From Bacteroidia bacterium (lineage in GTDB: Bacteria > Bacteroidota > Bacteroidia > CAILMK01 > JBBDIG01): DNA of 45,254 nt. Made by a program: the position numbers and the translations under genes. Positions 36,167-40,356 of the stretch are shown one piece after another; within the stretch, counting starts at the first letter, position 1, and every line of letters begins with the position of its first letter. The stretch covers positions 1 through 45,254 of the forward strand of contig JBBDIG010000010.1 of the NCBI GenBank assembly GCA_040880525.1. The letters are read 5' to 3'. Below the pieces are notes generated by a model. That model ran no database searches. It saw nothing but the letters and a program-made list of their open reading frames with translations, and was not told the origin of the DNA.

Positions 36167-36585
36167 GGTTTTTATTGTTAATGGTTAGTTTCTATTTAAC
36201 GTCAAAGTTAAATTTAGTTACAATATATTTTAGTGCTTGTGCATAACAAATCTATATACGCAATTGCGTATATATCCACTTTTACCTAACCTCGAATCCC
36301 GCCCCGGCTTCGCTGACAAATGTAAAGAAAATTATTTCTCAGTGGGATTCTATTGCAAAAGATTCTATTTAGCGCCAAGCCATTGGTCATGAGACTATAA
36401 AACGAAACTACCCTGGTAACTACCAACGTAAAGCGGAATAGGCTGGTCAGTCTGATGGCTATTAAAATCGCGGGCATCGCAACGGCCTGTATTTCCTATA
36501 AAGATCATCTGTCTCAGGTTTGTGTCAGTTGCGATTAGGTGCCAAGGAAGTTGAGAAACTCTGCACTTTGCCTGATATTGCGCCC
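36167..36585. other. 419-nt gene-free gap at the island's right edge, with a 22-nt palindrome
   Basis: No credible gene is seen. At 36253-36274 lies a perfect 22-nt palindrome with half-site TATATACGCAA, the size and symmetry of a dimeric repressor operator. Next to it, GTGCATAACAA (36238-36248) is the same word, in the opposite orientation, as the outer arm of spacer C. The remainder (36280-36585) has no recognisable homology and contains the TTG-initiated in-frame extension of the glycosyltransferase gene, which I do not accept as coding. Confidence 0.6.
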
Positions 36586-37740
36586 ATGAAGCGAAGTACC
36601 GGAAGCCAAAAGCAACTCAAGCTCCTCAAATTCGACATCATCCATCCTGCCGCCTATCTTGAAGAAAAGAAGCGGCAGTGGCCGGATTTGGCCAATTTGT
36701 CGTTGGCAGCATACAGAGACCGCCTTATTGCGTTGCGCAGCAATTATTCTGACTTCTACACCTATTGGCTAAAGCAAAAGGGCTGGCAGGCCGAGGAGTT
36801 TTTTCTGATGGATGATGATTACCTGGCGAAAACAGCAGCCCATCTCTATGGCAGTAGCACCGGCCTCAAAAAGCTGCAAAGCCGCCTCAAGGACAAGCTG
36901 CGGCCCAAGCAAAGGCGCTGGGAGGAGCAGGTGATTCGCGACTACATTGAGGCGTTCGACCCGGATGTGCTGTTTGTGCGGTCGCAACCGCTGCCGAGCC
37001 AGTTCTGGCAGAAATACCGTGGAAAGCGACTGCTGGTGGCGCGGCTATCTGCCCGGCTGCCCTTTCACTGGCACCCCAACCATTGGGACCTTATTTATAC
37101 TGACCACCCGGATTTTGCCCGTTTCTTCGAGCTGCACGATGTGCCGACCAAACTTAATGACCAGGGCTTCGACCCGCGCATTCTCAGCGAACTACAGGAC
37201 GAAGGAAAAACCTATGACCTCACATTTGTGGGCGGACTTGGGACACAAAACTTCAGGCAGCGCACGGAGTTCTTCGAGCAGGTGGCGGCCAAGGCGGACT
37301 TCCGCTGGTGGGGCTACTGGTGGGAACATGGCGGCAAAGGCAGGCTCACGGATTTCCCCAACCTAAAGCGCACTTTCCAGGGGCCCACCTCCGGCCTCGA
37401 CATGTTTCAGGTGTACCGCAACAGCCGCATCGTCCTCAACGACTATGTGGACACCGCCAACGGTCTGGGCGTAAACCAGCGCATCTACGAAATCCTCGGC
37501 ACCGGCAGCCTCATGCTCACCCGCGAGGCACCTAACTTTGGAGAGATGTTTCCCGGCCACCTTTTCGCCACTTACAAAGATTTGGCGGACTGCCTTTCCA
37601 AAGTGGATTACTATCTCGCGCACGACAAGGAGCGAGAGGAATTGGCTGCTGCCGGTCAAGGGTTTATCGTGGGGAATTATAGTTATGAGCGGATTGTGGG
37701 GGAGTTGGATGAGGTGTTGAGGGGGATGGTCACCCCCTAA
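36586..37740 (+). CDS. CgeB-like glycosyltransferase
   Basis: The 384-residue protein (start ATG at 36586, MKRSTGSQKQLKLLKFDI) has a GT-B layout. The N-terminal half contains FDPDVLFVRSQPLPSQFW and LIYTDHPDFARFFELHDVPT. The C-terminal half has the Glyco_trans_1_2/CgeB pattern: YDLTFVGGLG, SGLDMFQVYRNSRIVLN, GLGVNQRIYEILGTGSLMLT and FATYKDLADCLSKVDYYL. It probably transfers a sugar in surface glycan assembly, in line with the sugar-nucleotide genes at 27481-31625, from which it is separated by the accessory island. The frame stays open to a TTG at 36520, but the extension looks non-coding. Its TAA touches the first base of a REP-like repeat. Confidence 0.85.
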   Translation: MKRSTGSQKQLKLLKFDIIHPAAYLEEKKRQWPDLANLSLAAYRDRLIALRSNYSDFYTYWLKQKGWQAEEFFLMDDDYLAKTAAHLYGSSTGLKKLQSRLKDKLRPKQRRWEEQVIRDYIEAFDPDVLFVRSQPLPSQFWQKYRGKRLLVARLSARLPFHWHPNHWDLIYTDHPDFARFFELHDVPTKLNDQGFDPRILSELQDEGKTYDLTFVGGLGTQNFRQRTEFFEQVAAKADFRWWGYWWEHGGKGRLTDFPNLKRTFQGPTSGLDMFQVYRNSRIVLNDYVDTANGLGVNQRIYEILGTGSLMLTREAPNFGEMFPGHLFATYKDLADCLSKVDYYLAHDKEREELAAAGQGFIVGNYSYERIVGELDEVLRGMVTP

Positions 37741-37840
37741 CGTCATTCTGACCGTAGCGCAGCGCAGGGAAGAATCTGGTGCTTGGATAACCGGGCGAGC
37801 AGCACAGTACCAGATTCTTCGCTGGCGCTCAGAATGACGT
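37740..37840 (+). repeat. REP-like palindrome, copy 1
   Basis: Outer arms ACGTCATTCTGA (37740-37751) and TCAGAATGACGT (37829-37840) and inner arms GAAGAATCTGGT (37769-37780) and ACCAGATTCTTC (37809-37820) give a two-tier hairpin of about 100 nt. The middle has GC-rich AGCGCAGCGC and CTGGCGC tracts. It is the same family and orientation as 38209-38313 and 40218-40340. Confidence 0.92.
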
Positions 37841-37884
37841 GTGTTTTTCGAATGGTGTAATTTGTAATGAACTAATTTAGCAAA

Positions 37885-38220
37885 ATGGGAAAAGGCGGAT
37901 ACACCTATATAATTTCAAATCAAAGAAACACCACCTTGTATATTGGTGTCACCGAAGATTTGTATTCGCGTATTTATAAACACAAGACCAACGCATTTCC
38001 CAAAAGTTTCTCGGCCAGATATAACCTGGATAAACTGGTGTACTTCAAATCATTTGGCTCAATTGAGGCAGCAATTGATTATGAAAAATACCTTAAAGGA
38101 AAAACCAGGAAATTCAAAGAAGACCTGATCAATAAATTAAATCAAATTGGGATGATTCATTTGACCAAATCAAGGAGTGGTAAATCCGCTTTCATCCTTC
38201 CACCCAAAACGTCATTCTGA
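37885..38220 (+). CDS. GIY-YIG family endonuclease bracketed by REP-like repeats
   Basis: The 111-residue single-domain protein has the GIY-YIG core: YTYIISN and LYIGVTEDL (the two conserved strands), the catalytic Arg in YSRIYKHK, and the conserved Glu in AIDYEKYLKGKTRKFKEDL. Small UvrC/URI-type nucleases of this kind cut DNA; many stand-alone members have no proven role. Here the gene lies 44 nt after repeat copy 1. Its last codons and stop (TSF then TGA, in ACGTCATTCTGA) are inside the left arm of copy 2, so the repeat supplies the C-terminus. This recalls REP-associated transposase units, although that enzyme class is different. Mobility is an inference. Confidence 0.88.
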   Translation: MGKGGYTYIISNQRNTTLYIGVTEDLYSRIYKHKTNAFPKSFSARYNLDKLVYFKSFGSIEAAIDYEKYLKGKTRKFKEDLINKLNQIGMIHLTKSRSGKSAFILPPKTSF

Positions 38221-38313
38221 CCGGAGCGCAGCATAGAGAAGAATCTGGTGCAGGAATGACCGAGCGTGGAGCATACATACCACCAGATTCTTCGCTGGCG
38301 CTCAGAATGACGT
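38209..38313 (+). repeat. REP-like palindrome, copy 2
   Basis: Outer arms ACGTCATTCTGA (38209-38220) and TCAGAATGACGT (38302-38313) match copy 1 exactly. The inner arms AAGAATCTGGTG and CACCAGATTCTT are also kept. The centre differs in length and bases. The left arm encodes the end of the GIY-YIG protein, and the right arm lies 15 nt from the stop of the antiporter gene, where it may also act as a terminator hairpin. Confidence 0.92.
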
Positions 38314-38328
38314 TCTGATTGGGTCATT

Positions 38329-39786
38329 TCAATTAAGGCAATCCAGGGCCCGCTGCAAGCTCTCTTCGTCTTCGGCAAGTACCACGATCACATCCCCCGG
38401 CAATAGTACTGTGGCCCCGTTCGCAGAAATGTAGGTCCCATCGCGCTTAATCAATACTATCAACGCCTTTTTAGGAAACCCGAGGCTTACCACTTTAGCA
38501 CCAGCAGCCCTGCTGGTGCCGGCAATTTCTACTTCCGCCAGCTCCGATCCTATGCTGTCAGCAAGCTCAATGTCAAGCGGAGTACGTCTTTTCACGCCTT
38601 CGGGCAGGGCTACCTTTAGTATCCTGGCCATTATTGGAATTGTGGTTCCCTGCAATATAACCGAAATCAGGGTAATAAAAAATACGATATTAAATATGAG
38701 GTCGGCATTTGTTAATCCAGCAATAAGCGGATAAGTAGCAAATACGATGGGCACCGCTCCTCTTAACCCTACCCATGAAATAAATATCTTATTTCTTATT
38801 TTCATTTTAAAAAAAGCGAGGCAAATAAGAACGCTTAATGGCCGCGCAATAAAAATAAGAAACACTGAAATGACTATCCCTATGCCTACAATGGGAATGA
38901 TCTGAGAAGGAAAAACGAGCAAGCCCAGTGTCAAAAACAATATAATTTGCATAAGCCATGCGACTCCATCAAAAAATCGCATCAGGCTTTTTTTGTGAAT
39001 GAGGCTATGGTTTCCCATATAAACGGCACAGATGTACACTGCCAAAAACCCATTGCCGCCAATATATTCGGTAGCTGAATATGTGAAAAATATAACGGCA
39101 AGCAACAATCCCGGATAGAGGCCCTCGAAATCCAGTTTAATTTTATTTACCAGTAACCGGCCAAGATAGCCCATCCCAATTCCTGCACCGAAGCCCAGCG
39201 CAAACTGTAGTATGAAAGTAGGCAGTATGGCCAACATACTGGTTTTCGCTCCAATTGCGAGTGCGGTAAGGGTAATGGTGAGGAAATATGCCATCGGATC
39301 ATTGCTGCCGCTTTCCAGTTCCAGGGTAGGGCGCAGGTATCCCTTTAACCCCACACTTTTGGAACGTAGCACAGAGAATACAGCAGCAGCATCAGTCGAA
39401 GATACAATGGCCCCCAGTAATAGACCTTCGATTAAGTCCACCTTAAAGAAATACCATGTGAATATCCCTACAAATGCAGTAGTCAGCAATACGCCCAATG
39501 TAGAAAGTACAGCTCCCCGCCAAAGTATGGGCTTAATACTTTCCCACTTGGTATCCAGCCCCCCGGAAAACAAAATAAAATTCAGCGCTACAATTCCAAT
39601 AAATTGGGCAGCCTGGGGATCATTAAAATTTATTCCGCCAAGCCCTTCTGATCCGGCAAGAATGCCAATACCAAGGAAAAGCAATAGCGTAGGAACCCCA
39701 AACCGGTAGGAAGTCTTGCCCGCCAAAATGCTTATAAAAAGCAGGATAGAGCCAATTAACAGAATGTCTTCGCTAATATATTCCAT
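38329..39786 (-). CDS. potassium/proton antiporter, NhaP2/CvrA type (CPA1)
   Basis: The 485-residue protein has about twelve membrane helices followed by a cytosolic C-terminal RCK-C/TrkA-C domain (about 395-485; ELAEVEIAGTSRAAGAKVVS to LPGDVIVVLAEDEESL). Typical CPA1 motifs are seen: FGVPTLLLFLGIGILAGSEG, the IVSSTDAAAVFSVLR segment with the transport Asp, and ELESGSNDPMAYFLTI. It should expel K+ (or Na+) in exchange for protons. RCK-C domains in other phyla can bind c-di-AMP, and a c-di-AMP synthase gene lies at 10153. It is monocistronic and convergent with the repeat-flanked nuclease gene. Confidence 0.93.
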   Translation of the reverse strand: MEYISEDILLIGSILLFISILAGKTSYRFGVPTLLLFLGIGILAGSEGLGGINFNDPQAAQFIGIVALNFILFSGGLDTKWESIKPILWRGAVLSTLGVLLTTAFVGIFTWYFFKVDLIEGLLLGAIVSSTDAAAVFSVLRSKSVGLKGYLRPTLELESGSNDPMAYFLTITLTALAIGAKTSMLAILPTFILQFALGFGAGIGMGYLGRLLVNKIKLDFEGLYPGLLLAVIFFTYSATEYIGGNGFLAVYICAVYMGNHSLIHKKSLMRFFDGVAWLMQIILFLTLGLLVFPSQIIPIVGIGIVISVFLIFIARPLSVLICLAFFKMKIRNKIFISWVGLRGAVPIVFATYPLIAGLTNADLIFNIVFFITLISVILQGTTIPIMARILKVALPEGVKRRTPLDIELADSIGSELAEVEIAGTSRAAGAKVVSLGFPKKALIVLIKRDGTYISANGATVLLPGDVIVVLAEDEESLQRALDCLN

Positions 39787-40075: not shown

Positions 40076-40217
40076 ATCTGTTTATTTTTCAATATTTTAT
40101 CCCGTTCGCAATATAATCAGGATGACATAATATCTATTTCAAAAGGTTTAAATAATTGATAAAATGCACTCTGAAAAAAACGATACAACTATTTCAATTA
40201 AATTATTCCACCCCTTG

Positions 40218-40340
40218 ACGTCATTCTGACCGGAGCGCAGCGCAGAGAAGAATCTGTGCATGAATAACCGGGCGTGGAGCACACCACCAGATTCTCCAAA
40301 TAACATACAAAACAAAATTCGCTGTTGCTATGAATGACGA
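40218..40340 (+). repeat. REP-like palindrome, copy 3 (interrupted)
   Basis: The left arm ACGTCATTCTGA (40218-40229) and the following CCGGAGCGCAGCGCAGAG match copies 1 and 2. In the right half, ACCAGATTCT is followed by about 22 extra AT-rich bases before TTCGCTG resumes, and the outer right arm is degraded (TGAATGACGA). It is therefore an older or disrupted copy. Confidence 0.8.
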
Positions 40341-40356
40341 AAAGGAAAATAAATGA

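Follow-up and report, generated by a model that had tools for sequence, protein, structure and literature searches.

The stretch of DNA analysed here (the window, 45,254 nucleotides) is an entire contig of a Bacteroidota genome of 3.8 Mb in 60 contigs, the nearest genomes to which belong to other families. Between a glycosyltransferase-like open reading frame (ORF) and a convergent potassium/proton antiporter gene, it carries a small gene for a single-domain GIY-YIG nuclease with a palindrome on either side (Table 1). The original prediction, that two palindromes in the same orientation bracket a 111-codon GIY-YIG gene, describes the locus correctly, and the two copies are 100% identical over their 32-nt right end. 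Its finer claims about the junctions hold as well: copy 1 starts at the stop codon of the glycosyltransferase-like ORF (TAA, 37738-37740) and, as copy 2 begins upstream of the end of the nuclease ORF, the nuclease gene takes its final codons and its stop (ACG TCA TTC, then TGA) from the left arm of copy 2.

Table 1. Positions of the features discussed, in the window unless another contig is given
Feature	Position	Strand	Support and context
Glycosyltransferase-like ORF	36520..37740	+	PF13524, E=1.7e-25; upstream of copy 1
Palindrome copy 1	37739..37841	+	covariance model 121.9 bits; folding energy (MFE) -53.1 kcal/mol
GIY-YIG nuclease gene	37885..38220	+	111 aa, single-domain; PF01541, E=1e-15
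Palindrome copy 2	38208..38314	+	covariance model 105.6 bits; folding energy (MFE) -47.6 kcal/mol
Potassium/proton antiporter gene, convergent	38329..39786	-	NF003716, E=1.1e-184; outside the unit, downstream
Third palindrome copy, degenerate, right arm broken	40217..40341	+	69 bits; 2 kb downstream
MITE-like element of Hymenobacter genome G369	G369:C1, around 4191545-4191635		L252; 33367-33457 of the reversed 200-kb stretch

Each copy, of about 103 nt, is composed of CGTC-tagged units placed head-to-head (CGTC...GACG) with an inner asymmetric loop, where the unit runs from the CGTC tag through a 5-bp stem (ATTCT/AGAAT) and a loop of about 20 nt to a CTGGTG tail, followed by the inverse. The consensus of this family is ACGTCATTCTGATCGnAGCGCAGCGGAGAGAAGAATCTGGTGCTnGAATAACCGGGCGTGCAGCACnCnACCAGATTCTTCGCTGGCGCTCAGAATGACGT. 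With a covariance model, about 20 distinct copies are recognised in the window's genome, of which 11 are near full length and several are clustered. Among the 16 genome copies measured, the two that flank the nuclease gene have the lowest folding energies, the next-lowest being -38.9 kcal/mol. As most copies in this genome are degenerate, the nuclease-repeat system may be inactive there. On contig C24 of the same genome (L010:3082-4167), a tandem array of 293-bp units without a clear gene contains three near-identical copies of the palindrome and a partial one.

The genome has a single small GIY-YIG gene, its other two GIY-YIG matches lying in frames of 608 and 459 aa. The encoded protein is a standalone GIY-YIG domain with the conserved Tyr, Tyr, Gly, Arg and Glu residues expected of the UPF0213/Slx1-like proteins, the conserved motif positions being Y8, Y19, G21, R29, H33, E67 and N86 (alignments A2 and A3). 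In profile searches it is similar to the UPF0213 structures 1ZG2 (E=3.5e-8) and 1YWL, while an AlphaFold model with a pLDDT of 84.9, for which 69 window and locus sequences served as input, has its best fold matches in 1ZG2 (5.8e-4) and the Slx1 structure 6SEH (prob 1.00). Judged by this profile match and by the fold match of a predicted structure, the protein belongs to a minimal GIY-YIG group together with UPF0213, a family that a 2006 survey of the superfamily groups with Slx1 (PMC1564403). Since Slx1 is a structure-specific nuclease of branched DNA, a palindrome would fit as the substrate of a protein that resembles it. A Pfam scan of the nuclease found no NUMOD or other DNA-binding domain, the only matches being PF01541 and a marginal T5orf172 overlap, and the gene lacks the intron or intein host that would mark it as a GIY-YIG homing endonuclease. 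A role as a defence system was also considered and was rejected, there being no PADLOC match.

We assembled 138 loci, all picked on nuclease sequence only: 80 named loci drawn from a set with one genome per species, 30 loci from 247 Bacteroidota genomes and a set of first relatives, with L030 and L141 being one place. The first relatives, which share the order and class of the window's genome but belong to different families, have strong hairpins adjoining the nuclease gene. Over all 138 loci, CGTC/TGTC-tagged units, detected as GTCA(T/C)-stem-loop-stem, have a density of 3.38 per kb up to 300 bp from the ORF and of 0.267 per kb beyond 600 bp, an approximately 13-fold difference, with shuffled sequence giving 0.14 per kb. 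At least one unit is present in 113 loci, units stand on both sides in 69, and the commonest start of the downstream unit is 2 bp past the nuclease stop codon. Because the detector was designed with the enriched 8-mers already known, we rely equally on two motif-free results, both of which are independent of it. Firstly, the 8-mers GTCATTGC and GAAGCAAT are found near 77-79 loci but in the distant noncoding DNA of only 10-15, and the enriched 8-mers together spell GTCATTGCGAG...GAAGCAATC. Secondly, when the flank upstream of a gene is compared with the one downstream of it, the two match (score of at least 25) in direct orientation in 47% of cases and in inverted orientation in 27%; for flanks exchanged between loci the figure is about 3%, and for distant blocks 0-2%. 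In a genome-wide count the exact repeat lies within 500 bp of 5 of 28 nuclease genes, where 0.06 would be expected. A strong enrichment of the nuclease beside the repeats, set as a test by the original prediction, is thus present on each of these measures, and the arrangement of a gene with two palindromes is far from chance. The paired loci span well over a dozen phyla, among them Bacteroidota, Bacillota, Pseudomonadota, Omnitrophota, Chloroflexota, Planctomycetota, Ignavibacteriota, Cyanobacteriota and several candidate phyla, some loci being from metagenome bins whose taxonomy may be wrong.

Neither GIY-YIG genes in general nor intergenic DNA in general account for this pattern. Loci of UvrC-type GIY-YIG genes are nearly empty of units, and the sequence-specific tests are much stronger than a plain comparison of palindromic stems (score of at least 12), which occur in 31% of cases near the gene and in 16% of intergenic controls, an approximately 2-fold difference. 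Two groups of relatives are embedded in repeats of another kind. In a YhbQ-like subgroup of small GIY-YIG genes (L050-L058), the gene is bracketed by a palindrome without the GTC tag, similar to CTTCGACTTCGCTCAG, which suggests that the pairing is wider than the CGTC repeats. More distant small GIY-YIG genes (L048:1419-1896 and L049:1300-1847, in genomes G024 and G008) adjoin a tRNA gene, a 3'-end fragment of which is directly repeated beside them, as an exact repeat of 145 bp in L049; this embedding looks like that of a tRNA-targeting element.

The palindromes differ between loci in their stems, which include ATTGC, ATTCT, ATGCT, ATCCT, ATTTC and other types, and these types are clustered on the nuclease tree, with 33 changes against a shuffled mean of 40.5 and none of 200 shuffles as low, in a tree built from only 102 columns, many forks of which are unresolved. 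Palindrome type therefore follows nuclease lineage. This bears on a hitchhiking explanation, in which independent, homing-like GIY-YIG genes enter or persist in REP-rich intergenic sites while something else moves the repeats. In its favour, intergenic sites that bear REPs are hot spots for insertion and their cargo varies, as described below for Hymenobacter, one repeat-rich genome has no nuclease, and the two tRNA-adjoining relatives sit between tRNA-derived repeats instead. However, both the repeat 8-mers and the units thin out away from the gene, the former strongly in the distant noncoding DNA of these loci and the latter 13-fold in distant sequence overall, and the match of type to the nuclease tree, together with the similarity of a gene's own pair of flanks, calls for a specific link; we regard hitchhiking as improbable.

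Across the 247 Bacteroidota genomes, the exact ATTGC-type repeat is present in 53 and a reversed control pattern in none, with the nuclease found in 49 of the 53 repeat-bearing genomes and in 106 of the 194 repeat-free ones (odds ratio 10), a statistic that ignores kinship among the genomes, so that we count the co-occurrence as support only. The expectation that repeats are concentrated where the nuclease occurs agrees with these counts but has exceptions, the main one being G050, the repeat-rich genome mentioned above, which holds 389 exact copies of GTCATTGCGAGN(3-16)GAAGCAATC in 3.9 Mb and in which no small GIY-YIG gene was found, also with the Pfam model. Either the nuclease was lost there after the repeats had expanded, or the repeats can be spread by another factor. 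At the other extreme, a genome may hold up to 16 nuclease paralogues, some with internal stops.

Both the repeats and the cassettes turn over, as is seen in the gap between carA and carB, surveyed in 120 Hymenobacter genomes. The gap is found in three states: with a REP-nuclease-REP cassette of 840-1975 bp (ten read), short, at 113-174 bp (three read), or with other cassettes, one kind of which retains the last codons of a nuclease gene before the REP. The genomes G369 and G370 are 99-100% identical on either side of the gap, and one carries the nuclease cassette where the other has a different palindrome. What distinguishes the states is the exchange of the entire intergenic cassette and not a clean insertion with a target duplication. 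The gap is a hot spot in its own right (L214-L233), with small ORFs that differ between species, have no known function and are often flanked by palindromes of two unrelated types, the CGTC type and a CGCCTCACCCCCTGGCCCC type. In a second genus, the exact ATTGC repeat has 117 copies in G134 and 3 in G192. At orthologous intergenic sites in 15 congeneric species the REP dimer is present, absent or of another type, and one such gap, of about 15 bp in most species, measures 162-177 bp in the four that have a dimer. The empty sites and copy-number differences that had been proposed as a further test of mobility therefore exist. Movement is slow, however, as nearly all repeats are common to G369 and G370 (99.3% identical) over 200 kb, and no clean insertion of a CGTC REP was found between them in the 200 kb compared. 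The clean insertions there are a Y1-type insertion sequence (IS) of about 600 bp, two further insertions that resemble IS elements (about 840 and 1000 bp), and a palindromic, MITE-like element of 90 nt with terminal inverted repeats (TIRs) GGAGTTGTTTAGAAAGTC and a 3-bp GAA duplication, present in G369 and absent from G370 (Table 1). For the repeats, a search for a target-site signature found none.

The main rival to a mobilising nuclease is a domesticated repair enzyme, which would resolve the cruciforms or hairpins of the palindromes and be kept adjacent to them for regulation, with the REP as a terminator or RNA stabiliser, without mobilising anything. The protein's fold and sequence are nearest to UPF0213/Slx1, prokaryotic Slx1 relatives are predicted to have repair roles (PMC1564403), the repeat often begins 2 bp after the stop codon, and most repeats stay in place when close genomes are compared. 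The nuclease is also under purifying selection in Hymenobacter, where the median dN/dS among its orthologues is 0.09. Against these points, the patchy distribution, the numerous paralogues with their internal stops, and the gain and loss of cassettes look selfish rather than housekeeping, and a repair role leaves unexplained why the palindrome type tracks the nuclease lineage. A domesticated repair role is accordingly, in our assessment, unlikely, if less so than hitchhiking.

A further possibility is that the repeats are REPs of the usual kind and owe their movement to a RAYT/Y1 transposase whose gene lies elsewhere in the genome, and the window's genome does have eight Y1_Tnp hits. None of the eight has a unit within 500 bp, a result that largely refutes a RAYT of this genome as the mobiliser, and a published survey did not find CGTC repeats flanking tyrosine transposases (PMC3733652), so that we consider this explanation very improbable. 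The RAYT-like Y1 hits L020 and L021 (contig C48), and L025 and L026 (contig C29), occur in close pairs of equal score that are unrelated to the CGTC palindromes.

The reading we favour, and think probably correct, is that of a 'REP-nuclease' unit, in which CGTC-REP-like palindromes are served by their own Slx1/UPF0213-like GIY-YIG nuclease in a RAYT-like role. Most likely, we infer, the nuclease would recognise the hairpin or cruciform of its own palindrome type and nick the folded palindrome near its CGTC end, after which break repair or strand transfer would copy or move the palindrome, the gene sometimes being carried along between two palindrome copies. The small Slx1/UPF0213-like nuclease is in this respect the best candidate for a partner of the CGTC-type repeats. 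Besides the pairing, the matching of types and the turnover, this reading draws support from the purifying selection on the nuclease, from its likeness in fold to Slx1 and from the low folding energies of the two flanking copies; it is weakened by G050, by the nearly static repeats of G369 and G370 and by the replacement of whole cassettes at carA-carB. More tentatively, small GIY-YIG nucleases may mobilise CGTC-type palindromes across bacteria as a second, unrelated route to the REP lifestyle, with lineage-specific types of nuclease and palindrome moving between phyla together; we rate this as somewhat less likely than not. The finding of a concrete enzyme beside its cognate palindrome in many species makes the spread of CGTC REPs directly testable and, were the proposal true, the very common UPF0213-like GIY-YIG family would gain a role and the REP lifestyle would have arisen with unrelated enzymes.

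Among known systems, the closest for the palindromes are the CGTC-tagged REPs, reported in five phyla, Bacteroidetes among them, with no dedicated transposase and no association with transposase genes (Di Nocera et al. 2013, PMC3733652). The likeness lies in the CGTC/TGTC tag, a stem starting with AT, head-to-head dimers and dispersed intergenic copies without an attached RAYT, and both window copies conform to it, with CGTC-ATTCT...AGAAT stems in CGTC...GACG pairs dispersed over the genome. The four published families, however, have stems of 8-9 bp, loops of 4-5 nt and a CCA-like tail (PMC3733652), whereas here, judged against that published description, the perfect stem is of 5 bp and the loop of 10-20 nt (at the upper end in the window family), and on account of these lengths we file the window repeats as CGTC-REP-like, outside the four families. 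The original prediction of a REP-like unit of a new kind is partly supported: the candidate partner is a GIY-YIG nuclease where known pairs have a RAYT, but the palindromes themselves resemble repeats already described. No associated enzyme is reported for those repeats, and our search found no published link between CGTC REPs and GIY-YIG nucleases; as preprints and most subscription journals were outside it, we claim no priority. With UPF0213/Slx1-like nucleases (1ZG2, 1YWL) the protein shares its standalone minimal domain, in profile and fold, but the genes described here are embedded in repeats and the 2006 survey does not mention palindromes (PMC1564403). Free-standing GIY-YIG homing endonucleases are likewise small, selfish-looking nuclease genes of patchy distribution, but the association here is with a palindrome and not with one target allele, and there is no intron. 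Finally, the REP-RAYT pairs (REPtrons, REPINs) share with these loci dispersed short palindromes and an enzyme gene bracketed by well-preserved copies of its own type, and differ in that their enzyme is an HUH/Y1 tyrosine transposase, no repeat-flanked gene for which was found here, and their tag GTAG, whereas in the units described here a GIY-YIG nuclease stands between palindromes tagged with CGTC.
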